The notes under the pieces were generated by a model. That model saw only the letters and a program-made list of their open reading frames with translations, did not search any database and had not been told where the DNA came from. This document shows, piece by piece, positions 28,709 through 49,789 of a stretch of 64,000 nucleotides of DNA. This DNA is from Emcibacter nanhaiensis. Lineage in GTDB: Bacteria > Pseudomonadota > Alphaproteobacteria > Sphingomonadales > Emcibacteraceae. The stretch is taken from positions 689,501 through 753,500 of the forward strand of contig NZ_VFIY01000005.1 in assembly GCF_006385175.1 (NCBI RefSeq), in the 5' to 3' direction. A program made the translations under genes and the position numbers. The stretch's first letter is position 1. Every line of letters starts with the position of its first letter.

Positions 28709-29413
28709 TTAACTTGCCTCGGCGATATTCTGGTCGCTTTCGTTCGGGTCGCGCAGGACATAACCGCGGCCCCAGACAGTCTCGATGTAGTTTTCACCGC
28801 TGATGGCTGCCAGTTTCTTGCGCAGTTTACAGATGAAAACGTCGATGATTTTCAGTTCAGGCTCGTCCATACCGCCATACAGGTGGTTGAGGAACATTTC
28901 CTTGGTCAATGTGGTGCCTTTGCGCAGGGACAGCAGCTCGAGCATGGCGTATTCCTTGCCGGTCAGGTGAACGCGCTGGCCTTCCACTTCAACAGTTTTG
29001 GTATCCAGGTTAACCGCCAGCTTGCCGGTGCGGATAATGGATTCCGCATGGCCTTTGGAGCGGCGGATAATGGCCTGGATGCGGGCAACCAGTTCTTCCT
29101 TGTAGAAGGGCTTGGTCAGATAGTCGTCGGCGCCGAAACCGAGGCCTTTAACTTTATTTTCCAGTTCGGCCATGCCGGACAGGATCAGGATCGGGGTGTT
29201 GACCTTGGACAGGCGCAGTTTTTTCAGAACGTCATAGCCGTGCATGTCCGGGAGGTTAAGGTCAAGCAGAATGATGTCGTAATCATACAGCTTGCCAAGA
29301 TCAATACCTTCCTCGCCGAGGTCAGTGCTGTAAATGTTAAAGCCTTCTGCTGACAGCATCAGTTCGATGCTTTTGGATGTTGATGGATCATCTTCTATGA
29401 GTAGCACCCGCAT
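28709..29413 (-). CDS. ctrA: Cell-cycle master response regulator
   Basis: 234 residues: receiver domain with D51 ([12 protein letters not shown]) and K in [10 protein letters not shown], then an OmpR-type winged helix ([37 protein letters not shown]), near-identical in pattern to Caulobacter CtrA. It binds TTAA-N7-TTAA boxes and, in this class, controls division, flagella and chemotaxis. The 340-base upstream region has many TTAA half-sites, in keeping with autoregulation. It is transcribed towards cheR and away from fliI. Confidence 0.97.
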
Positions 29414-31106: not shown

Positions 31107-31409
31107 TAGTCTGCTTTTATTGATTTTTTTGCAAAAAAATCCGGAATACCCCCGACTCTATTCTTTTGGTTACGGTCCGTAAATATTTGCAGGCTATACT
31201 GATTCACATAACTGATTCAGTAAAAGCACACCGGGTTTTCAACCGGGATGAATCAAAAATATAAGTGGTACGGGAAGAAGTCCTGTTGCATAATCGGATG
31301 ACCGGCAAATTCATCGTTTGCCAGGTTCAGGGCATAAACCTCCGGAGTCAGAAAGACCGGTCCTGAAAAGAAAGAATATCAGGTTTGTGATCCGTTTATT
31401 GAGGTGGAT
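31107..31409. promoter_or_regulatory. fliI-fliJ spacer with palindrome and direct repeat
   Basis: About 300 bases with no gene. It holds a 20-bp perfect palindrome, GATTTTTTT-GC-AAAAAAATC (31122-31141), 16 bases after fliI, and a 9-base direct repeat ACTGATTCA at 31198-31206 and 31211-31219, each copy containing a GATTC (CcrM-type GANTC) site. This suggests fliJ has its own promoter. Confidence 0.4.
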
Positions 31410-31838
31410 ATGACTAAGGGAATTGACGGCATGATCAGGTTGCACAAGTGGCAGCTTGATGAAAAAAGAAGGCAACTGACCGAACTGGAAACCATGCGGG
31501 ATGATCTTCTGGCGAAGAAAGATCAACTTGCCGCGCAGCTGGTTTCGGAACAGGAAAAGGTGGCCAGTTCTCAGGTGGTCGATATTTCCTACGCAAATTT
31601 CGCTGCCGCCATCACCCAGCGTCAGGAAAAGCTTGATGAAAGCCTGGTCGAAATCGAAGCCTCCATCGAAGAGATGAAGGACCAGGTCGCCGAATCCTTC
31701 AAGGAACTGAAAAAATATGAAGTTGTCGAGCAGCGTGAGCGCGAACGGCAACGGGCCAAGGAAAACCGCCGCCAGCAGGCGGAACTGGACGAACTGGCGA
31801 TCCAGATGCATCGTCGCAACAACATGCGGGCCGGCTGA
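31410..31838 (+). CDS. fliJ: Flagellar export chaperone FliJ
   Basis: About 142 residues, almost entirely charged and helical, predicted as a long antiparallel coiled coil (KWQLDEKRRQLTELETMRDD; REREREQ-like repeats near the C terminus), the typical FliJ architecture. FliJ links the FliI ring to the FlhA export gate. ATG at 31410 is preferred to GTG at 31404, because GAGG lies right at the GTG. Downstream of fliI on the same strand. Assignment relies on shape and context more than on motifs. Confidence 0.8.
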   Translation: MTKGIDGMIRLHKWQLDEKRRQLTELETMRDDLLAKKDQLAAQLVSEQEKVASSQVVDISYANFAAAITQRQEKLDESLVEIEASIEEMKDQVAESFKELKKYEVVEQRERERQRAKENRRQQAELDELAIQMHRRNNMRAG

Positions 31839-31870: not shown

Positions 31871-32236
31871 TCAGTAGCTGCGGGAAACCAAGGCGTCGTC
31901 ATTCCAGTTGGGTTGCCGGTCCTCGATATAGATATTCGCCTGCAGACCGCTGTCTTCGTCCATGCAGAAAATCTGCACCCTGATCCATTTGGGCACCAGG
32001 ATATCCATACAGTCTTCCAGGATATTGGAGGCAAGCCCCTCCGGTGTGTTCCATTCCTGCACCTGGCACTGGTCCAGGTAATCGTCGAAACTGCTGTGCG
32101 CCAGGATCAGCTTGTCGGCGACATATTTCAGGGTGATGCCAAAGGATTCACTTTCGAAATCCAGGGTTTTGTGCAACTCGATCACATATTCCCGTTGTTT
32201 GTCGGGGTTTGGGGTTGCTTTCAGTATTTCCTTCAC
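31871..32236 (-). CDS. QueF-like T-fold protein lacking the catalytic segment
   Basis: 121 residues. By eye it aligns with NADPH-dependent preQ0 reductase QueF: NPDKQREYVIEL with QueF NPxxxxDYxxxF, FGITLKYVADKLILAHSSFDDYL with the QueF ATIxISYxPDxxxVExKSLKLYL segment, and NILEDCMDILVPKWIRV with NxIxxDLxxxxxPRYxxV. The QueF active-site stretch with the catalytic Cys and Asp (CPxTGQPDF) is absent, so no reductase activity is expected. It is the last gene of the leftward flagellar operon, 39 bases after the FliK-like gene, which suggests a structural or regulatory role. The homology is my reading and has not been tested by a search. Confidence 0.6.
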   Translation of the reverse strand: MKEILKATPNPDKQREYVIELHKTLDFESESFGITLKYVADKLILAHSSFDDYLDQCQVQEWNTPEGLASNILEDCMDILVPKWIRVQIFCMDEDSGLQANIYIEDRQPNWNDDALVSRSY

Positions 32237-32274
32237 GGAAAAATCCTTCTCTTACTGGTCGTCCCGGTGCCTGG

Positions 32275-34647
32275 TCAGGCCTCTTGTGAGGCGCTGCCCG
32301 AAAAATGGAGTTTGGTTTCCATCAGCTTTCTTACCGAAAATTCCGGTTTTCTGCCATCCTGAAAAACAAGCTCTCCTTCAAAGCCGCTGTGTTGCACTGA
32401 ATTGCCGAACATTTTTACCAGCTGTTCCTTGAGCGGAGCGGCGAGGGTCTTTTCCGTTTTCAGGATGATATCCAGGCGTTTTTTCTGCAGCATGCCGTCC
32501 AGGACCGTGTTGCCGGTGCCTTTCAGGTCCAGTTCGAGGATAAACCGTGTCGCTTTTTCCTTGTCCTCCGGCGTGCCTTGCTCTCCATCCCGGGCCGCCT
32601 GCTTCCCGCCTTCATCGCCGATGTGCCGGACCAGCATGGGGATGGCGGTGATGTCGGGGCCTGTCTGCAACGGCAGCAGGACAGGACGCCAGTCGCCTGC
32701 CGGCCCCTCGGTGCGCAAGGCGGATATCCGCCGCATGTCCGTATCCATTTGCTGGATCAGTCGTTCCTGGCCGGCCCGCTGCAGGTGCTGCACCACTTCC
32801 TGGCCGAGCCAGGCCTGGGCCGGGTTGGGCGATCCCAGCGCTGCCATGAAAAACAGGATGCCGGCGGTCATCTGCTGCGGCGCCTGCAGGTTTGGCATGC
32901 GCTGGGTCATGGCAGCGGCCGCAGCTCCCTGCTGGGCGGCCAGGGTTGAAATCGCAAGACTGAGGCTTTCCCAGTTGTCCAGCATCTCCAGAAGGGGTTG
33001 CGGCGGTGCCTCCGCGGCGGCGGGTGCCGCTTCCGGGGCCGGTGCGGGCGGTGTGGACGGCGCGGGGGCTTCCGTTGCAGGCGCCGGTGAGGTGGGGGTT
33101 GCCGATGCCGGTGCCGCCTCGGGACGCGGGCCCGCTTGTGCGGACTTTGCCGGTTCCTGCGGGCCTTGGGGCGCGGTTATATTTTCCGCGCCCGGTGATG
33201 GGGTTACTGAAAAGGTGACAATGGTTCCCGGCGGCAAGTCAGCGCTGCTTTCAAATTTAACCACTGAAACCGGTGTGGCCAGATAGTGGGTTTTCAGGCC
33301 CGCCGGCGACTGGGATTGCTGGCCGTAAGGGACCGCCTTCGGCAGGGGAGGCTGTGTTTCCGGTGCGATGTCCTCCCGTGACGGGCTGATCCTGGACGCG
33401 TTCTTCGGGTCGACAATAATAGCCGAAATGGTTTGCGGCGGCGGGGTTTGTCCCGGCAGGGCAGTGTCCGTCGGGGTGGCAGATACTGTCTGGGGGGCCG
33501 GGGGCGCCGCCAGGGGAGAGCCCGGGGGGATGGCGGCCGCCGGCGGTGGCGTTTTTCCCGCTTCAGCCGCAGGGATTTCCGCCCCGCTGACAGGAGTCGA
33601 CCCGGGGGCAGAGGGCAGAACGGGCTGGATTGTCGCCTCCTCGCCTTCATTGGGAATGGCGATCGACTGGACTGACAAATTGAAGCCCTTTCCCTTCGGT
33701 ATGTCGTCGAGGGGAGAATCCAGCGCGATTTCCTTTTGTACAAAGGCCGGCAGGGGGGTGTCCGGCTTGGGATAGGTTTTGATGACCGTAGCGAACACCG
33801 GTTTCTGCAGAAGTTGTTCGAGACCGGTTTGCTGAACCCTGTTTGGCGGTGAAGCCGGGGCCGGGGCAGAGGCTTCCTGGGCGATGATCGGAGCGCCGAT
33901 GACAGAGCTGGACAATCCGCCGCCTGTACTTGATGCAGTGTTGGACTGGCCGGGCTCCTGACCTCCTGCGTGTCCGGCTCTTCCGGAATCAAAAAAAGTG
34001 TAACTTCGGGTTACCGTCGGCAGCGGGATCTGTTCAATGGCGCCGGAAAGATTTTTCGCAATTTGTTCGGCCTTGTAGAGATTGCTGGCCTGGTAATGAA
34101 AGCCCGGCTCCGTTGCAGAGGCGGATGGCGGCTGACCGGTGTCGGGCAGGACAGCGGAATTTACATTAACAAGTGTCAGGGTGACCTCGGTGGGGCGAAA
34201 GATCTGCTCTTCCAGACCAATATGTTTTTCCGTGCGCACCGGGGTGATTGTGGCGTTGATCTCCTTGTCCACCGAGGTGATCTGGACGGCCGCCTTGGTG
34301 TCGGGCGGCAGTTTCGCCAGGGCTTGCTCCAGTTCCGGCTGGGCCTGGACCACATAGGTGCCCTTGTCGGTCGCAATAACCGGCCGGCTTTCCCCGTCAC
34401 GGCCCTCGACCCGCGCGATAAAACTGCTGCCTGCCTGTAAATGGACCAGCGAGGCAGACAGGGTCACGGCAGGATCGTGATGATGCACCTGCTTGCTGCT
34501 CTCGGCGGTTTTCTCTCCGCGGCGGGCCTGTTCGTTCGGCGTCTGCTGGTGTGCGCCCTGATCGGAAGTGGTCGAAGTCGGCGTAACCCTGCTCGGGCTT
34601 TCCTGCTGGTTGAATTCCGGTTTCTGTGTGCTGCCTATTTCACTCAT
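32275..34647 (-). CDS. Large Pro/Ala-rich FliK-like flagellar protein
   Basis: 790 residues. The N-terminal part is Ser/Thr/Gln-rich; the middle (about 250-570) is low-complexity Pro/Ala/Thr, probably disordered; the C-terminal about 150 residues are folded (RFILELDLKGTGNTVLDGML, then KRLDIILKTEKTLAAPLKEQL) and resemble the FliK hook-length-control C-terminal domain. A second, canonical fliK lies at 47882-49789. The gene is in the flhA-flhF-flhG operon. It may be a hook-length or export-switch factor, or a rod or ring protein of this lineage; the symbol is left blank. Confidence 0.65.
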   Translation of the reverse strand: MSEIGSTQKPEFNQQESPSRVTPTSTTSDQGAHQQTPNEQARRGEKTAESSKQVHHHDPAVTLSASLVHLQAGSSFIARVEGRDGESRPVIATDKGTYVVQAQPELEQALAKLPPDTKAAVQITSVDKEINATITPVRTEKHIGLEEQIFRPTEVTLTLVNVNSAVLPDTGQPPSASATEPGFHYQASNLYKAEQIAKNLSGAIEQIPLPTVTRSYTFFDSGRAGHAGGQEPGQSNTASSTGGGLSSSVIGAPIIAQEASAPAPASPPNRVQQTGLEQLLQKPVFATVIKTYPKPDTPLPAFVQKEIALDSPLDDIPKGKGFNLSVQSIAIPNEGEEATIQPVLPSAPGSTPVSGAEIPAAEAGKTPPPAAAIPPGSPLAAPPAPQTVSATPTDTALPGQTPPPQTISAIIVDPKNASRISPSREDIAPETQPPLPKAVPYGQQSQSPAGLKTHYLATPVSVVKFESSADLPPGTIVTFSVTPSPGAENITAPQGPQEPAKSAQAGPRPEAAPASATPTSPAPATEAPAPSTPPAPAPEAAPAAAEAPPQPLLEMLDNWESLSLAISTLAAQQGAAAAAMTQRMPNLQAPQQMTAGILFFMAALGSPNPAQAWLGQEVVQHLQRAGQERLIQQMDTDMRRISALRTEGPAGDWRPVLLPLQTGPDITAIPMLVRHIGDEGGKQAARDGEQGTPEDKEKATRFILELDLKGTGNTVLDGMLQKKRLDIILKTEKTLAAPLKEQLVKMFGNSVQHSGFEGELVFQDGRKPEFSVRKLMETKLHFSGSASQEA

Positions 34648-34725: not shown

Positions 34726-35493
34726 CTATAGTTTTTTGACAATTTCCGTAACATCGTCGCCCGCCGGGCATTCCGGATGCCGGGACAGAAGCGGTTGTTG
34801 GTGGCGGATGGCGGAGACCACATGGTCGTCCTGCCTGACGGCACCAAGATAGTCCGGGGTGAATTTGAGGAAGTTTTCACAGGCCTTTTTCAGGGCTTCA
34901 TAGACCCTTTTGCCGGCGTGCCGGTCCTTGACCATATTGACGACGATGGAAATCCGGCTGTCCGGGTTGCGCATGCGGGTGATCTTGATAAAGGCATAGG
35001 CATCGGTCAGCGAGGTCGGATCGCCGGTGACCACCACCACAATATGGCCGGAGATGGAGGAAAAGGCTGTCACAGAGGTCTCCACGCCGGCACCCAGATC
35101 CAGCAGGGTATAGTCATAGGACTGTTTGAGTTTCAGGATTTCCTGACCGAGGGTTTGCAAAGCTTCCTGCTTGATTGACGCCAGGGCGCCGGAGCCGGAC
35201 TGCCCCGAGATGACGTCAAAGGTGACTTTGCTGTTGCTGGGATCGGCGTAGCTGGTGACGGCCTGGTCAAGCGTGATGCGTCCTGAAAAAACCATGGACA
35301 GATCCTTGTCAGGCGTCAGGCCAAGCTGGATATCGATATTGGCCAAGCCCAGGTCGCCGTCAAACAGCAGGACATGCTTGCCTTTGCGCGCCAGGGTGTG
35401 AGCGATGGTGGATGACAGCCAGGTTTTGCCGACACCGCCCTTGCCGGACGCGATCGTAATCAGTTTATGGGTGTCAGAGGCGTTGGTGGTCAT
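34726..35493 (-). CDS. flhG: MinD/ParA-type ATPase controlling flagellar number
   Basis: 255 residues with the deviant Walker A SGKGGVGKTWL (residues 16-26), switch I region FDGDLGLANIDIQLG, and the Walker B-like YTLLDLGAGV. FlhG (FleN, YlxH) limits flagellar number and acts with FlhF. It overlaps the flhF 3' end by 4 bp (ATGA), supporting this identity over a chromosome-partition ParA. The C-terminal membrane-targeting helix is short (VTEIVKKL). Confidence 0.9.
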   Translation of the reverse strand: MTTNASDTHKLITIASGKGGVGKTWLSSTIAHTLARKGKHVLLFDGDLGLANIDIQLGLTPDKDLSMVFSGRITLDQAVTSYADPSNSKVTFDVISGQSGSGALASIKQEALQTLGQEILKLKQSYDYTLLDLGAGVETSVTAFSSISGHIVVVVTGDPTSLTDAYAFIKITRMRNPDSRISIVVNMVKDRHAGKRVYEALKKACENFLKFTPDYLGAVRQDDHVVSAIRHQQPLLSRHPECPAGDDVTEIVKKL

Positions 35494-36611
35494 TTCTGAA
35501 CGCTTTCTTCGGGGTTTTCTGGGTTGTCTTCTTCAGTCGGTTCCGACAGCGGTTTCAGCAGTTCTTCGATATCGGAATGCTGTTCTTCTTCCGTCGGGGC
35601 CTGTTTCAAATGGTCGAGTTCCTGCCGTTTCGGGATTTTGGTCAGCAGCCGGGCCAGGTGCAGGGCGTCAAGCGGCTGGATACCGTCGGCCAGATAGGGC
35701 GTGATGCCGACGCCGGCGAAGGTCAGTCCGCCGCTGTCGGCGGTGACCATCAGGCTGGCATAGCGACGCGACACATCCAGCCGGGTGGCAATGAAGCGAC
35801 GCACGCCCAAGGCGGCATAGGTTTCGGCAATTTCCCGGGCTTCCACCGGATCGGCCCCGGCTGAAATCACCAGCACCGGCTCGACATCGCCGGCGGTTAT
35901 ATACTGGTGCAGCTGGTCCAGCTCCTCGGCCGAGAAGGGATTGAAGCCGCCGGTATCGATCAGGATAAGCTCTTTCTCATCGGTCAGCGGCTTGAGCGCC
36001 GTCGCCAACTGGTCGGGTGAGGATACTTCCGTCACCGGGATATGGAGCCGGTCGGCATAGCCTTCCAGCTGCGCGAGGCCGCCCATCCTCAGGGTGTCGG
36101 TACTGACCAGCCTGACAGGTATCCGGTTGAGCAGGGCCTGGCTCGCCAGTTTGGCGGCGGTCACGGTCTTGCCCACGCCGGGCGGGCCGACCAGCAGGAT
36201 CGGCTTTTCCTGGGGACCGGTCAGCGGTTCAAACTTGAACTGGCTGTCGAGTGCGCTGGCCAGCGACAACAGCTTGCTTTCGCGCTCCATGGCGTTGGCC
36301 AGGTCAAGCAGCCTGAGTTTCAGGCTGTCCGGCAGGCCATGGTGGCTGAGGAAGAATTCAAGATCCTGTTCCTCGATTTTTTGCTCGTCATCCAGTTCCC
36401 GGAGCGATTTTTTGACCGGGGAGGGCGCCGGGGCCGGCGGGGCTGTTTTCCTCGGATTGACCCGGGCGGCCGGTGCTTCAACGGCGGCCGTGATCTTGAC
36501 CAGGCCGTCTTCTTCTTCAGTATCCAGAATAACCGCATTGTCCCCCAGTTTCTCCCGGATCTGGGACAGGGCTTCCTGCATTGTCTTGGCGCTGAATATT
36601 TTTAGTCGCAT
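35490..36611 (-). CDS. flhF: SRP-type GTPase placing the flagellum
   Basis: 373 residues: N-terminal basic-domain stretch (MRLKIFSAKTMQEALSQIRE), Pro-rich linker, then an NG GTPase domain with G1 at 142-149 (GPPGVGKT), DTLRMGG, DTGG and the later TRLD. FlhF marks the site of flagellar assembly, usually a pole. Co-translated with flhG. Polar flagellation is an inference from this pair. Confidence 0.92.
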   Translation of the reverse strand: MRLKIFSAKTMQEALSQIREKLGDNAVILDTEEEDGLVKITAAVEAPAARVNPRKTAPPAPAPSPVKKSLRELDDEQKIEEQDLEFFLSHHGLPDSLKLRLLDLANAMERESKLLSLASALDSQFKFEPLTGPQEKPILLVGPPGVGKTVTAAKLASQALLNRIPVRLVSTDTLRMGGLAQLEGYADRLHIPVTEVSSPDQLATALKPLTDEKELILIDTGGFNPFSAEELDQLHQYITAGDVEPVLVISAGADPVEAREIAETYAALGVRRFIATRLDVSRRYASLMVTADSGGLTFAGVGITPYLADGIQPLDALHLARLLTKIPKRQELDHLKQAPTEEEQHSDIEELLKPLSEPTEEDNPENPEESVQK

Positions 36612-36689: not shown

Positions 36690-38789
36690 CTATATTTGTC
36701 CAAGGGTTCTTATTTTTACCTTCGGGTGCACTTCATTTTGCGACATCACCACCGTTGCCGGACGGAACCGCTCGATAATGGATCGCACATAGGGCCGGGT
36801 CATGGGGCTGGTCAGGAGAACCGGAAGTTCGCCCGCATGGGCCTGGTCTTCAAATGTCATCCGCACCAGTCCGATAAATTCCTGAAGCTGGCTCGGCGCC
36901 ATGGCCAGCTGTTTTTCCTCGCCGCCGCCGATCAGGGCATCCATAAAGGCCTGTTCCCACTGCGGGGACAGGTTGATCAGGGGAATCACATTGTCCGCAT
37001 CCGCATTGTCATGGCTGATCTGGCGGGCGAGGCGGGTCCGCACATGCTCGGTAATCATAACCACATTCTGGGTATAGCCGCAGGCTTCGGCAATGCCCTC
37101 AAGGATAGTGGGCAGGTCGCGAATGCTGATCCGTTCGTTGAGCAGGTTCTGCAGGATGCGTTGCACGCCACTCTGGGTAATCAGGTTCGGGATCAGGTCG
37201 GCCACCAGTTTCTGGTGCTCCTTGGGCAGGTCATCCATCAGTTTCTGAACTTCCGCATAGGACAGCAGCTCGGACATATTGTCTTTGATCACTTCCGTAA
37301 TATGGGTGGTAATCACGGTGGCGGCATCAACGACCGTATAACCGCGGAAGGAGGCTTCCTCTTTCATGCTTTTCTCGACCCAGACCGCCGGCAGGCCGAA
37401 GGCCGGTTCGCGGGTTTCCTCGCCGGGCAGGGCAACCTGCTCACCCCGCGGATCCATGACCATCAGCATGTTGGGGCGGATATCGCCGCGGCCGACTTCC
37501 GACTCCTTCAGGCGCAGGACGTAGGTATTGGCCGGCAACTGCATGTTGTCGAGGATTCGCACGGACGGCATGACAAAGCCCATCTCGGAAGCCAGCTGGC
37601 GCCGCAGCGCCTTGATCTGGTCGGTGAGGCGGATGCCGCTGTCGTCATTGATCAGGGGCAGCAGGCCGTATCCCAGTTCCAGGCGGACCGGATCGATGGC
37701 GAGCGCGGTAGTGATCGGTTCTTCCACCGGCTGGGCTTTTTCCGCCTCTTTCTGTTCCGCGATCATCAGTTGTTCTTCTTCCGCCCGTTCTTCCTGCAGC
37801 CGGGTCAGGGACCAGGAGGTCAGGCCGAGGATGCCGGAGACGACAGCAAACGGCAGGAACGGAATGCCCGGCAGCAGGGACAGCAGGAACAGCAGGAAGG
37901 AGGTTACGCCTATGGCGCGCGGGTACGTACTGAACTGGCTGAACAGCGCCTTGTCGGTCTTGCCGGTGACGCCGGATTTTGTCACCAGCAGACCGGCAGC
38001 GGTAGACACAATCAGGGCCGGGATCTGGCTGACCAGGCCGTCGCCGACGGTCAGCAGGGTATAGGTATTGGCGGCATCGCCAAAGCCCATGCCTTTCTGG
38101 GCCACGCCGATGATCATGCCGGCGATAATGTTGATGAAGGTGATCAGCAGGCCGGCAATGGCGTCACCGCGCACATATTTGGCGGCACCGTCCATGGAGC
38201 CGAAGAAGGTGCTTTCGTCTTCCAGCTCCTTACGGCGGGCCCGGGCCTGGTCTTCGTTGATCAGGCCGGAGGAGAGGTCTGCATCAATGGCCATCTGTTT
38301 ACCGGGCATGGCGTCCAGGCTGAACCGGGCGGCCACTTCGGCGATCCTGCCGGAACCCTTGGTAATCACCATGAAGTTCACAATCAGAAGGACGGTAAAG
38401 ACGATGATCCCGATCACGAAATTGCCGCCCATGACGAAAGAGCCGAAGGCTTCGATCACATGTCCCGCGGCCGAGGGGCCGGTATGTCCTTCGCTCAGGA
38501 TCAGGCGGGTGGACGCCACATTGAGCGCCAGGCGCAGCATGGTGGCGATCAGCAGCACTGTCGGGAAACTGTTGAAATCCAGCGGCCGCTCGATAAACAA
38601 CGCGGTCATCAGGATCATCACGGAAAAAGTAATGGACAGGGTGAGGCTCATGTCCAGCAACCACGGTGGCATGGGCAGGAACAGCACCACAAGAATAGCC
38701 ACGACCACCAGCGCCATCAGGATGTCGCTGCGTTGTGACAACTGGCTTAGAAAGCCTGTCTGTGTCGTGTCCGTGGAGGTTTCACTCAT
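36690..38789 (-). CDS. flhA: Flagellar export gate protein FlhA
   Basis: 699 residues: about eight transmembrane helices in the first 330 residues, the conserved FHIPEP-type cytoplasmic loop region (ARFSLDAMPGKQMAIDADL, about 150-170), and a large cytoplasmic domain that docks chaperone-substrate complexes. Near-standard length for FlhA. A 699-codon antisense open frame exists over the same DNA but is a shadow. flhB is not in the window. Confidence 0.96.
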   Translation of the reverse strand: MSETSTDTTQTGFLSQLSQRSDILMALVVVAILVVLFLPMPPWLLDMSLTLSITFSVMILMTALFIERPLDFNSFPTVLLIATMLRLALNVASTRLILSEGHTGPSAAGHVIEAFGSFVMGGNFVIGIIVFTVLLIVNFMVITKGSGRIAEVAARFSLDAMPGKQMAIDADLSSGLINEDQARARRKELEDESTFFGSMDGAAKYVRGDAIAGLLITFINIIAGMIIGVAQKGMGFGDAANTYTLLTVGDGLVSQIPALIVSTAAGLLVTKSGVTGKTDKALFSQFSTYPRAIGVTSFLLFLLSLLPGIPFLPFAVVSGILGLTSWSLTRLQEERAEEEQLMIAEQKEAEKAQPVEEPITTALAIDPVRLELGYGLLPLINDDSGIRLTDQIKALRRQLASEMGFVMPSVRILDNMQLPANTYVLRLKESEVGRGDIRPNMLMVMDPRGEQVALPGEETREPAFGLPAVWVEKSMKEEASFRGYTVVDAATVITTHITEVIKDNMSELLSYAEVQKLMDDLPKEHQKLVADLIPNLITQSGVQRILQNLLNERISIRDLPTILEGIAEACGYTQNVVMITEHVRTRLARQISHDNADADNVIPLINLSPQWEQAFMDALIGGGEEKQLAMAPSQLQEFIGLVRMTFEDQAHAGELPVLLTSPMTRPYVRSIIERFRPATVVMSQNEVHPKVKIRTLGQI

Positions 38790-38815: not shown

Positions 38816-40192
38816 TCAGGTGACATGTTGTCCGGGTTCACCCGGACTGGGAACGTTACGCCCCTCGGCCATATACTGATTGAGCTTGTTGCGCAGGGTC
38901 CGAATGGAAATGCCCAGCACATTTGCGGCATGGGTCCTGTTGCCGAGGCAATGTTTCAGGGTATCAATGATCAGGTCCCGTTCCACATCGGCAACTGTGC
39001 GGCCGATCTGGGAACCGGTGGCGAAGGGCGCATCGTCTTCATCCGCATCTGCCGTGGCCGTGCCGCCGCGGCTGTGAATGGCCACGTGGGGTTTGCCGTC
39101 GGGCAGGACAATGTCCTGCTTGGCGATCCGGTCGCCGCCGGCCAGCAGCACTGCCCGGTGCATGGTGTTTTCCAGTTCGCGGACGTTGCCCGGCCAGTCG
39201 TGGTTGATCAGGACCTCCATGGCTTCCGCCGAAATCGGTTTCGGCTCCAGGGCGTTGAACTCCGCATATTTCTGGGCGAAATGCTTGCACAGGGCCCGGG
39301 TGTCTTCCGGCCGTTCCCGAAGCGGCGGGATGTGCAGATTGACCACATTGAGCCGGAACAGAAGGTCTTCGCGGAAGGTGCCTTTCTTGACTTCTTCCTG
39401 CAGGTCCCGGTTGGAGGTGGCGATGATGCGGATGTCCACCTTGACTGGCCCACCACTGCCGCCGACGCGGTCGATTTCCCGTTCCTGGATGGCGCGCAGC
39501 AGCTTGGACTGCAGACGGATGTCCATCTCGGTAATCTCGTCCAGCAGCAGGGTGCCGCCATTGGCTTCCTCGAATTTACCGACCCTGCGGGCAACGGCGC
39601 CGGTGAAGGCGCCTTTTTCATGGCCGAACAGTTCGGATTCCAGAAGGTTTTCCGGGATTGCGGCGCAGTTGACGCTCACATAGGGCTTGTTGGCGCGGCG
39701 GCTTTTGCTGTGTACATAGCGGGCCATGACCTCTTTACCGGTGCCGGATTCCCCTGTGATCATGATGCTGGCTTCGCTTTTGGCAACCTGGTCGGCAAGC
39801 GAGACCACCTGCATCATGGTCCGGTCGCGATAGATGAAATCATGTTCATCGTCGGCGACGGCGGTCAGAACCGCGGCAATCAGGTCAGGGTCCGGCGGCA
39901 GGGGAATATATTCCTTGGCCCCGGCCTTGATGGCCCGTACCGCAGCTTCGGAATCATTGCCGATGCCGCAGGCGACGGCCGGGGTCGAAATGCGCTCGGA
40001 TTTCAGTTGCTCCAACAGCCCCTTGATGTCCAGCTTGACATCGACCATCAGCAGGTCGGCGCCTTTGGAGCGCACAAGGTTCAATGCGGCATTTTCATCG
40101 TCAACATGCAGGACCTGTGCTCCCTGTTTTATGGCAATCTGGGAGGCCGCACTTAACTGTCCCTGTAGTGTACCAACAATGATAAGACGCAT
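38816..40192 (-). CDS. flbD: Sigma-54-dependent flagellar regulator FlbD
   Basis: 458 residues. The N-terminal receiver-like domain keeps D51 but lacks the usual acidic pair (MRLIIVGTLQG instead of VDD), so it is degenerate, as in Caulobacter FlbD. The central AAA+ domain has Walker A GESGTGKE (148-155) and the sigma-54 contact loop GAFTGA (195-200). The C terminus is a Fis-type helix-turn-helix (NRTHAANVLGISIRTLRNKLNQY). Expected to activate the middle/late flagellar promoters; two sigma-54-type sites are seen between fliK and flgK. Part of the fliF operon. Confidence 0.92.
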   Translation of the reverse strand: MRLIIVGTLQGQLSAASQIAIKQGAQVLHVDDENAALNLVRSKGADLLMVDVKLDIKGLLEQLKSERISTPAVACGIGNDSEAAVRAIKAGAKEYIPLPPDPDLIAAVLTAVADDEHDFIYRDRTMMQVVSLADQVAKSEASIMITGESGTGKEVMARYVHSKSRRANKPYVSVNCAAIPENLLESELFGHEKGAFTGAVARRVGKFEEANGGTLLLDEITEMDIRLQSKLLRAIQEREIDRVGGSGGPVKVDIRIIATSNRDLQEEVKKGTFREDLLFRLNVVNLHIPPLRERPEDTRALCKHFAQKYAEFNALEPKPISAEAMEVLINHDWPGNVRELENTMHRAVLLAGGDRIAKQDIVLPDGKPHVAIHSRGGTATADADEDDAPFATGSQIGRTVADVERDLIIDTLKHCLGNRTHAANVLGISIRTLRNKLNQYMAEGRNVPSPGEPGQHVT

Positions 40193-40214: not shown

Positions 40215-40976
40215 CTATTCAAAATAATTGATGCGGTGTGACTGGGGCAGCATTGAGTTGAGCTGCATTTCCAGACGCCGCGGGTTTTCTTCCCGGCCGA
40301 TGGACAAAGCCCCGGCCAGGTAGAGGGAATTGAGGATGGACTCATTATGGGAATTGCGCTCGGCCTTGGTGGCCAGAGGCATCAGCACCATATGGGCCAG
40401 GATGGCGCCGTAGAAAGTGGTCAGCAAGGCCACGGACATGGCGGGACCGATGGTGCTGGGATCGCTCAGGTTGCCCAGCATCTGCACCAGGCCGACCAGG
40501 GTGCCGATCAGGCCCATGGCCGGGGCCACTTCCGCCGCCCGGCGCAACAGGTCGACGCTTTTTGACTGGATATTGGCCGTATAATGGATTTCCTTTTGCA
40601 GCATCTGCTCGATCTCATGGCTTTCCGCCCCGTCAATGGTCAGGTTCAGCGCCTTCTGCAGGAACGGTTCGTCATTCAGGGTCGGGGTGACCTTTTCCAG
40701 CGAGATCAGGCCGTTTTTGCGGGCCCGTTCGGAAATCTGGATCATGGTAATGCCCACATCCCGCGGATCATGGGGGGTGTAGGCCATCAGCCGCCACAAA
40801 GCGCCGGGGATCTGTCCCAGGTCCTTGAGGGAAAAGCTGACAATGGTGATGGCGACGGTGCCCCCGAGTACGATCAATATTGACGGCAGGTCAAGAAAGG
40901 CCGTAGGTGAGCCACCGATGACCATGGCAGAGATGATCAGGGCGAAGCCGATAACTATTCCGATAAGCGTAATCAC
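40215..40976 (-). CDS. motA: Flagellar motor stator protein MotA
   Basis: 253 residues with four hydrophobic helices: two near the N terminus (LIGIVIGFALIISAMVIGG; LIVLGGTVAITIVSF) and two near 150-205 (APAMGLIGTLVGLVQML; SVALLTTFYGAILAHMVL), a MotA/TolQ/ExbB fold with the conserved proline and GLIGTLVG. It forms the proton- or sodium-driven stator with MotB. No motB is present in the window. Encoded between fliN and flbD. Confidence 0.92.
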   Translation of the reverse strand: MITLIGIVIGFALIISAMVIGGSPTAFLDLPSILIVLGGTVAITIVSFSLKDLGQIPGALWRLMAYTPHDPRDVGITMIQISERARKNGLISLEKVTPTLNDEPFLQKALNLTIDGAESHEIEQMLQKEIHYTANIQSKSVDLLRRAAEVAPAMGLIGTLVGLVQMLGNLSDPSTIGPAMSVALLTTFYGAILAHMVLMPLATKAERNSHNESILNSLYLAGALSIGREENPRRLEMQLNSMLPQSHRINYFE

Positions 40977-47881: not shown

Positions 47882-49789
47882 TTAAACACTGATATCCAGG
47901 CCGCTGTTACTGACGTTGACGGCAATAATTTCTGCCGGTGCCAGGTCATCTTCAGCCTGTATGTCGTCACCGCTGGCAAATCCACTGTCCGGATTGCCAA
48001 AGCCGTTACCATTGCCGGCCTGCTGCCGGAGATTGAAGTTCAGGTTCCCCTGATCCATGTTAAATCCTGCATTCCCGAGCATCCTGCTCAGGGTATGCTG
48101 GTCCCGTTGCAGCAGATGCAGGGTTTTTTCATTGTCAACCGTCAGGGTCGTCATCATCTTGCCGTCGGCGGCGAAATCCATTTTGACATCAACCTGACCA
48201 AGCTCGGCGGGGTGCAGCTGTACCCGGAAGGTGCTTTTGCCGTTGGCCATATGGCGGCTGACCGCGGCCAGGATCTGATCGGCTGCCGCCTGAGCAGAGG
48301 CGAGACCGTTTTGCAGGATGGTGCCGCTGTGCTGCAGGCCGGTAGAGGCTGCTTCCTGAACAACAAGATTATGGGCGCCAACGACAAGCTGCTGTCCCAT
48401 GTTGAGATTATGTGTGGCCGCTGCTGTCTTGCTGGCAAGGCTGTCGAGCGGCGTCTTCTGCAGGAGGGCAAACTGCTCCCCGGCGGGTTTGGCGGCCGTG
48501 GGTTCTGTTTGTCCGCTGCTGCCGGCCGCATCTCCTGAAGCGGCTTTTGCAACACCGTCCCTGTTATCGGCTGCTGCGGCCGCCAGGTTTTTGTTTTCGC
48601 GATTATCCTGTGGCTGGCCGTTGCTATTCTGTTGCCTGTTGCCACTGCGGCTGCTGTCGACCGGTACAGTTTCATCACCGGTGGGCGCGCCGGTCCTGCT
48701 GTCCGCCTCGGCACGACTTGCCACTTGTTTTTCCGCGGGGGCTTGAGTGGCGGCGACGGCGACATCGGAAAGGTCTTCCTCATTATCATCGCTTTCGGAT
48801 GGTTTCGAAGAAGTATCTTTTTTGGCTTCAGCATGGGATGCCGGGGTAAGCGGCGCCGCGGGCTCATCGTTGGAAGCATCTGCGACCTCTACAGGGGGTT
48901 CGGCAGGGCTTTCCTTGTCACTGTCTTTGGTGTCGGCAACTTGTTTCCCAGGCCCAGATTTCTCTTCAGACGCGCGACCGGTGCCTCTTTCTTCTTTATC
49001 GGCAATAACCGTATCGGTATCATCAACAGCCGCTTTAGGTGATACTTCGGCCTGTTGTTTTGCCGGGGCGGGGTCCGTTTCGGGCTCAGTGGTTCCCTGA
49101 GCAGCCTGTTCCGCGGGAGCTTCGGCATTTTTCTGGGGCGCTTTCTCGTCGGACGCGGCAGCGGCCTGTACCTGTTTACCTTCCGCGCTGTTTTCCTGAC
49201 CGGATGCGGCACCGTCGGAGACGGCAACCTGTTTGCCGTCCTCTGCAGTTGTCTGGGCCTCAGGCGCGGCATCAGCCTTTAGCCCAGCGCCGGGCTGCCC
49301 GGCCGCTTCCGGCGGCGCGTCGTCCGCCACACCATCAACCGCAGCGTCCGGCAGTTCTTCCGGTGAGGCGGTCGGTGTCTGGTCCGGGCTGGCAATGCCG
49401 GGCGATGTTTTGGATTTGCCGGTTTCTTTATTAAAGAGGGCAACTTCTTCCGCCTGGTCGGCTTTTGCTGCGGGATTTTCAGCAGCCTGTTCCTTCGGTG
49501 CCTCGGCAGATGCGTTTTCTGTTGGGGCGGTTTTGCCTTCAGCCGTCTTTTTTGCGGGGGCGGTTGTTTGTTCCGCTGTCTCGGAGGCACCGTCGTTCCG
49601 GGCCTCCGGCGCGGCCTTGGTCTCTTTTTTAGACGGGGCTGCGGCTTTGGCGTTTTCTTCAGACACATACTGACCAAACAGACCTTTGGTCTCCTGGTCA
49701 GCGCCAGAGGCATGGGAACCGCCACCTGAGCGGGAGGTGGTGGCGCCGGCGGCCTGCAGGGCATTATATATGTCTGTACCAGATGTCAT
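47882..49789 (-). CDS. fliK: Flagellar hook-length control protein FliK
   Basis: 635 residues. The first about 470 residues are low-complexity Ala/Glu/Pro/Lys-rich, expected for the molecular ruler. The C-terminal domain has the canonical motif FRVQLHPAELGQVDVKMDF followed by TLHLLQRDQHTLSRMLGNAGF and a Gln/Asn-rich tail. FliK measures the hook and switches export specificity. First gene of fliK-flgD-flgE; a sigma-54-type promoter ends 35 bases before its ATG. Confidence 0.92.
   Translation of the reverse strand: MTSGTDIYNALQAAGATTSRSGGGSHASGADQETKGLFGQYVSEENAKAAAPSKKETKAAPEARNDGASETAEQTTAPAKKTAEGKTAPTENASAEAPKEQAAENPAAKADQAEEVALFNKETGKSKTSPGIASPDQTPTASPEELPDAAVDGVADDAPPEAAGQPGAGLKADAAPEAQTTAEDGKQVAVSDGAASGQENSAEGKQVQAAAASDEKAPQKNAEAPAEQAAQGTTEPETDPAPAKQQAEVSPKAAVDDTDTVIADKEERGTGRASEEKSGPGKQVADTKDSDKESPAEPPVEVADASNDEPAAPLTPASHAEAKKDTSSKPSESDDNEEDLSDVAVAATQAPAEKQVASRAEADSRTGAPTGDETVPVDSSRSGNRQQNSNGQPQDNRENKNLAAAAADNRDGVAKAASGDAAGSSGQTEPTAAKPAGEQFALLQKTPLDSLASKTAAATHNLNMGQQLVVGAHNLVVQEAASTGLQHSGTILQNGLASAQAAADQILAAVSRHMANGKSTFRVQLHPAELGQVDVKMDFAADGKMMTTLTVDNEKTLHLLQRDQHTLSRMLGNAGFNMDQGNLNFNLRQQAGNGNGFGNPDSGFASGDDIQAEDDLAPAEIIAVNVSNSGLDISV

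Follow-up and report, generated by a model that had tools for sequence, protein, structure and literature searches.

The 64,000-nucleotide stretch of Emcibacter nanhaiensis DNA analysed here (the window) carries a minus-strand run consisting of a MotA/ExbB-like gene, a sigma-54 response regulator, FlhA, FlhF, FlhG, a gene that we call FliK-like and, in last position, a small gene starting with GTG. We use the name QFL (QueF-related flagellar T-fold protein) for the 121-aa protein encoded by this last gene. The first-pass annotation, made from the letters alone, had placed it at the end of a flagellar operon; the open reading frame exists as described and is a conserved gene, with FlhA, FlhF, FlhG and FliK-like upstream on the same strand and the convergent FliJ beyond. 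The features of the locus, with the evidence for each, are as follows.

31404..31838 (+): FliJ, convergent (Pfam FliJ 33.5 bits), with 32 nt between its end and the QFL stop
31871..32236 (-): QFL, 121 aa, GTG start (ORF listing, profile and structure matches)
32039..32041 (-): codon of QFL E66, aligned with B. subtilis QueF Glu97 (place derived from the ORF coordinates)
32244..32252 (-): Shine-Dalgarno-like AGAGAAGGA, 7 nt before the QFL GTG (read by eye on the reverse strand)
32275..34647 (-): FliK-like gene, 790 aa, 38 nt upstream of QFL, folded C-terminal part of about 240 aa
34726..35493 (-): FlhG, MinD/ParA-like ATPase (Pfam CbiA/ParA; operon position)
35490..36611 (-): FlhF, SRP-type GTPase (Pfam SRP54; FlhF model matched in two parts, under its cut-off)
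36690..38789 (-): FlhA export-gate protein (Pfam FHIPEP 878.7 bits)
38816..40192 (-): sigma-54-dependent response regulator (same order in Azospirillum)
40215..40976 (-): MotA/ExbB-family proton channel protein, with which the conserved run begins (same order in Azospirillum)
47882..49789: canonical FliK of the E. nanhaiensis genome

FliI adjoins FliJ in the window. The response regulator of the run is presumably FlbD-like; another one (28709-29413, minus strand), which we take to resemble CtrA, sits between CheR and FliI. Plasmids of two Azospirillum species, A. lipoferum (strain 4B) and A. ramasamyi, carry the same order of seven genes, the last two of them annotated 'hypothetical protein'. 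From the gene order, we infer that QFL is co-transcribed with the flagellar genes.

Relationship of QFL to QueF

Judged by profile searches, the similarity of QFL to QueF is real yet lies under the curated cut-offs. QFL scored 19.5 bits against Pfam QueF (E 0.0011; cut-off 27.3) and 26.5 bits against the NCBIfam QueF-II model TIGR03139 (E 4.7e-6), short of the equivalog cut-off of 86.9 bits. A Pfam scan at E<=10 returned QueF and DUF1419 (0.19) only, and phmmer of the lone sequence against the PDB gave no useful match. Within the QFL family alignment of 58 members (A3), QueF-II was matched by 56 and Pfam QueF by 41 at E<=0.01. The family profile recovered three B. subtilis QueF entries from the PDB (1.9e-5, 2.3e-5 and 1.6e-4), followed by QueF-Like (0.009), a tRNA ligase (0.32) and GTP cyclohydrolase I (0.59); the tail of this search is not specific, since the unrelated tRNA ligase outranks GTP cyclohydrolase I. 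Comparison by hhalign of the QFL family with 22 QueF sequences of the class (Alphaproteobacteria) yielded a probability of 97.5% (E 7e-12). The QueF-II matches across the alignment, the best PDB value and the hhalign result show that the similarity is not due to chance.

The genome of E. nanhaiensis encodes an ordinary QueF elsewhere, and its FolE is a separate gene. A second QueF match in this genome (L002) was rejected as QueF, its sequence reading as what we take to be FolE. In an unrooted quick tree of 75 QFL and 27 QueF sequences, each group falls on one side of a branch with an SH-aLRT support of 100. Scores under the curated QueF cut-offs are what one would expect of a decaying QueF copy or a functionless passenger open reading frame. 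However, the separation from QueF on the tree, the conserved residues, the many genera concerned and the strong gene linkage described below make such an origin scarcely credible.

An AlphaFold2 model of QFL, built as a single chain from 58 sequences, reached a pLDDT of 93.9 and a pTM of 0.86. It comprises strands 18-27 and 30-39, helices 47-59 and 65-79, and strands 84-93 and 99-107; this predicted ββααββ topology is that of a T-fold. The best Foldseek match of the model was QueF 4f8b (E 2.1e-7, TM 0.82). QueF was also the best match by Z score in the PDB (Z 15.4, rmsd 2.9, 119 of 121 residues aligned), followed by GTP cyclohydrolase I (Z up to 14.0), QueF-Like (13.4) and dihydroneopterin aldolase (up to 10.4). 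Because the fold alone puts QueF just slightly ahead (15.4 against 14.0), it is the sequence profiles that decide for QueF. Taken together, profiles and predicted structure confirm QFL as a distant QueF relative. The statement made at first pass that QFL follows QueF through most of its length agrees with the extent of the structural match, and QueF was the top match in both kinds of search.

Absence of the catalytic segment and retention of a glutamate

One study of QueF takes Cys55, Asp62, Glu97 and the QueF motif, which includes Glu78, as the marks of the family and classes a protein lacking any of them as non-QueF (PMC5372742). The hairpin that bears Cys55 and Asp62 in QueF is shorter in QFL and has no conserved cysteine: a cysteine at any position of it occurs in 10 of the 58 QFL members, whereas all 22 QueF controls possess the loop cysteine (EFTSLCP). 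None of QFL residues 18-36 is among the 26 most conserved positions, so Asp62 has no conserved counterpart, with the alignment of the shortened loop being uncertain. As for the NADPH motif, E(S/L)K(S/A)hK, an ESK or ELK string was found in a single QFL member out of 58, and ESK in 22/22 QueF controls. The first-pass annotation had reported the catalytic Cys/Asp segment as missing, which holds for the family; a normal active site placed elsewhere in the protein had been the possible objection, and we saw no sign of one, the commonest cysteine column being shared by just 6 of 58 members.

Glu97 is the sole one of the four QueF signature features retained in QFL. Its counterpart is E66, which HMMER and hhalign both align with Glu97 of B. 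subtilis QueF and which the model places in the first turn of helix 2. E74 in 'LED' was considered as the counterpart and rejected: its column is mostly D/E plus S, T, G and others, and both profile alignments give E66. According to the same QueF study, Glu97 anchors preQ0, the E97Q substitution raises KM 280-fold and helix 2 lines the subunit interface (PMC5372742). E66 is a glutamate in 58/58 A3 members and in 41/47 sequences of a wider set.

The way in which the sequences were collected affects how conservation should be read. Eighty named loci were gathered with two sequence patterns, the C-terminal EDRQPxW(D/N)N stretch and D-x-NNE-x-VPR; E66 is in neither. As both stretches served as search patterns, their conservation in A3 is inflated. 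Counts from the wider set are fairer (its 47 sequences, 29 of them from class loci and 18 from the window and relatives, were gathered by protein or profile search), since the patterns covered or touched most conserved residues. In these 47 sequences, conservation is high at D75 (45/47), W84 (41/47), D106 (41/47), Q108 (43/47), P109 (47/47) and W111 (39/47). The most conserved patch of QFL is the C-terminal EDRQPxW(D/N)N, a stretch that QueF does not have.

One could suppose that QFL is still an enzyme that acts on a deazapurine or pterin substrate by a different chemistry, as the substrate glutamate is kept and T-folds are known to carry diverse chemistry (PMC5485725). Without a conserved cysteine or an NADPH motif, and in a flagellar gene context, this strikes us as very unlikely. 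Alternatively, QFL could play a purely structural part in the export gate or in a polar complex, as a ring or an adaptor that binds no small molecule and whose oligomer is held together by E66 and other conserved residues. Unimodular QueF is indeed described as a ring decamer with ligand pockets at the subunit interfaces (PMC5372742), and the highly conserved E66, D75 and N78 all lie on predicted helix 2, the helix that lines the interface in QueF. The role of E66 may be structural, and this residue is not universal (6/47 differ). However, the one QueF signature feature retained is the ligand-anchoring glutamate, and we find the purely structural reading doubtful.

Distribution and gene neighbourhood

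QFL was matched in 24 of 60 genomes of near relatives, E. nanhaiensis included; four of the 24 contributed no locus. In the class survey, 43 of 385 genomes matched and 38 were kept, after removal of G120, G215 and G422, whose match was QueF by coordinates, and of the uncertain G368 and G394. The named loci (best 80 of 132 confirmed) come from Thalassospira, Azospirillum, Magnetovibrio, Terasakiella, Hwanghaeella and many uncultured lineages. At the phylum scale, 102 of 339 genomes matched, but only G000 and G323, both of the class, scored above 100 bits, the next value being 42.8. Over 152 residues, the QFL of G323 has 100% identity with that of Thalassospira lucentensis. Spread beyond the class was rejected for the five non-class matches examined (L188-L192), which read as QueF, as did the class match L193; far diverged QFL could hide among the remaining phylum matches, since diverged copies score just 18 to 45 bits.

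The presence of FlhA, QueF and FliK-like in the 38 class genomes was read by eye from match tables. FlhA is found in 36 of them, against 221 of 385 overall (hypergeometric p 9e-8, relatedness ignored), and the two QFL genomes without an FlhA match (G117 and G180) have FliI and FliJ beside QFL. Thirteen of the 38 lack a strong QueF match, a few of these genomes being incomplete (e.g. 64% and 81%); this argues against a role of QFL in queuosine synthesis.

QFL typically closes a run of the form flhA-(flhF)-flhG-(FliK-like)-QFL. In the 80 named loci, its neighbours include FlhG (65), FlhA (63), FlhF (50), FliJ (59) and FliI (59), the shortfall being partly due to contig ends. FliK-like precedes QFL on the same strand in 73 of these 80 loci. 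It is adjacent in all 19 relatives' loci, upstream and on the same strand, and is present in 24 of 29 class loci; whether relatives keep the two genes side by side, a check proposed at first pass, can thus be answered positively. A possible QFL start is located from 30 nt before to 110 nt after the upstream stop in 71 of 76 FliK-like/FlhG loci, with an exact 4-nt overlap with the upstream gene in 11. In two Thalassospira loci (L057 and L064), about 1.06 kb separates FliK-like from QFL, leaving room for an inserted gene. Fusions of QFL with FliK-like, suggested by long open frames in L027 and L040, were rejected because the genes are in different frames.

In its own right, FliK-like constitutes a flagellar gene family that is widespread in the class (131 of 385 genomes), located after flhG and distinct from canonical FliK. 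The first-pass annotation was correct in placing such a gene beside QFL, but this gene is not the canonical FliK, which lies farther along the window. The FliK-like protein of the window has no Pfam match, and the scattered weak ones of other members disagree. Comparison with the canonical FliK profile by hhalign gave 1.4%. A model of its C-terminal 240 aa (pLDDT 85.8) had no Foldseek match at E<=0.001; its last domain superposed on the substrate-switch (SS) domain of PscP with Z 6.2 and on FliK-C with Z 4.8, values under 8 that may reflect a common arrangement only.

This neighbour raises the possibility that QFL is a dedicated chaperone or export escort of FliK-like, affecting hook length or substrate switching, with the pocket as a relic. 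The frequent adjacency of the two genes and the co-occurrence of FliK-like in 31 of 38 QFL genomes point in this direction, as does the resemblance of the FliK-like C-terminal domain to PscP and FliK-C. However, a FliK-like match was missing in 5 of the 7 genomes, of unstated completeness, whose QFL lacks an adjacent FliK-like gene and in 7 of the 38 class QFL genomes (although G408, counted among these 7, has a weak match in locus scans), and FlhG directly precedes QFL in 8 of these 12 places. Conversely, 100 of the 131 FliK-like genomes have no core QFL, and the homology to FliK is itself weak. We therefore consider a FliK-like escort rather unlikely. The tie to hook length implied by the earlier annotation is weaker than its core idea, given that the C-terminal fold of this neighbour is just faintly FliK/PscP-like and that QFL is present beside FlhG where FliK-like was not found.

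The exceptions to the usual order are of several kinds. QFL directly follows FlhG, with no FliK-like gene between, in L079, L081 and L106; going by the first start codon of its frame, it overlaps the FlhG end by 4 nt in G414, G244, G337 and G287 (loci L194, L196, L197 and L198). In G166 (L195), the gene before QFL is an apparent natural FlhF-FlhG fusion, a 615-aa open frame (L195:2317-4164, minus strand) that matches both proteins and whose end is overlapped by the QFL frame. Eight loci, L085, L102, L116, L126 and L199-L202, showed no FlhG next to QFL. In L200, L201 and L202, a diverged QFL follows a CheR gene, itself preceded by FliK-like in L200 and L201, and no flagellar neighbour was seen beside QFL in L199. 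The L201 copy seems by eye to have no E66 equivalent.

In the part of a 2025 review of the FlhF/FlhG switch consulted here, flhF and flhG are presented as consistently encoded together, Caulobacter, the sole alphaproteobacterium named there, is said to lack the pair, and the main text has no mention of 'QueF' (PMC12826062). In eight of our loci (L092, L094, L097, L100, L108, L110, L113 and L125), FlhG comes straight after FlhA, without an FlhF gene separating them. When genomes were searched with the N-terminal part of the FlhF model, these eight, which have the order FlhA-FlhG-FliK-like-QFL, gave no match, whereas the three others searched (E. nanhaiensis, L055 and L090) did. FlhF is thus disfavoured as an obligate partner of QFL, by a weak test in which none of the 11 genomes reached the family cut-off. 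Since exceptions exist for FliK-like, FlhF and FlhG, no single partner appears to be obligate; it is to FlhG and FlhA that QFL stays linked most persistently, though neighbouring genes need not encode proteins that touch.

Proposed role and comparison with known systems

The idea put forward at first pass that a T-fold has been reused in flagella is supported as far as the fold, the missing catalytic segment and the synteny are concerned; for the partner, the ligand and the role, we can offer the following proposal. We read QFL as non-enzymatic, and as a protein that is probably oligomeric and probably binds a purine-like ligand. The reading that we favour, tentatively, is that QFL is a catalytically dead QueF-related T-fold that forms a dedicated part of the alphaproteobacterial flhA-flhF-flhG module and serves as a ligand-responsive adaptor. 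It would descend from a QueF that lost its chemistry and, like many T-folds, would assemble into a ring, with the purine pocket preserved where the subunits meet. In this pocket, it could bind a ligand of the purine or pterin type without reacting with it. The adaptor may act on FlhG, perhaps on FlhA or the FliK-like protein, and could tune flagellar number or the timing of the export switch. A ring with such a ligand is favoured because unimodular QueF forms rings with ligands at the interfaces and QFL keeps the pocket glutamate. Bimodular QueF is no such ring, and not all T-folds form one: the QueF of Vibrio cholerae is described as a dimer without a tunnel (PMC5372742).

The earlier suggestion of a nucleotide sensor gains support, of an indirect kind, from the retention of the substrate-anchoring glutamate. 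In its most specific form, QFL would be a ligand-sensing pseudoenzyme ring in which the former QueF substrate pocket detects a guanine-type metabolite, with FlhG or the FlhA export gate receiving the signal. In this version, which we hold to be unlikely, the number of polar flagella or their assembly would track nucleotide status in many Alphaproteobacteria.

The T-folds that QFL matched here are enzymes involved in purine and pterin chemistry. Unimodular QueF, the preQ0 reductase (TIGR03139/PF14489; PDB 4f8b, 4fgc), has in common with QFL the T-fold, superposable over the full length, and the substrate glutamate. In contrast, the Cys55/Asp62 loop and the E(S/L)K(S/A) NADPH motif are present in QueF only, the EDRQPxW(D/N)N stretch and the flagellar operon in QFL only, and the two lie on opposite sides of a fully supported branch. 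The archaeosine synthase QueF-Like (PDB 5jyx) is likewise a QueF-related single T-fold, similar to QFL in size and in predicted structure (Z 13.4). It is described as a tRNA-modifying enzyme that retains its catalytic Cys21 as well as an Asp in the active site (PMC5485725); QFL, unlike QueF-Like, has no conserved cysteine at the position of Cys21. GTP cyclohydrolase I (FolE) and dihydroneopterin aldolase, also members of the T-fold superfamily (with Z reaching 14.0 and 10.4, respectively), are pterin-synthesis enzymes of lower sequence similarity to QFL (E 0.59 for GTP cyclohydrolase I). A search of open-licence papers returned no description of a QueF-like flagellar protein. If our reading is correct, QFL would clearly exemplify the conversion of an enzyme fold into an element of cell architecture.

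The position of the QFL gene has a precedent in FipA of gammaproteobacteria, which is reported to be encoded downstream of the flhA/flhF/flhG operon and to bind FlhF (PMC11620751). Both are small extra genes downstream of flhA, flhF and flhG. However, FipA sits in the membrane and carries a DUF2802 domain, whereas QFL has no DUF2802 match and matches QueF; the E. nanhaiensis genome gave no credible match to DUF2802 (best E 0.39, in a search run without a positive control). Should the proposal hold, QFL would be a candidate extra factor for flagellar number and placement in Alphaproteobacteria with FlhG, comparable to FipA near flhFG.
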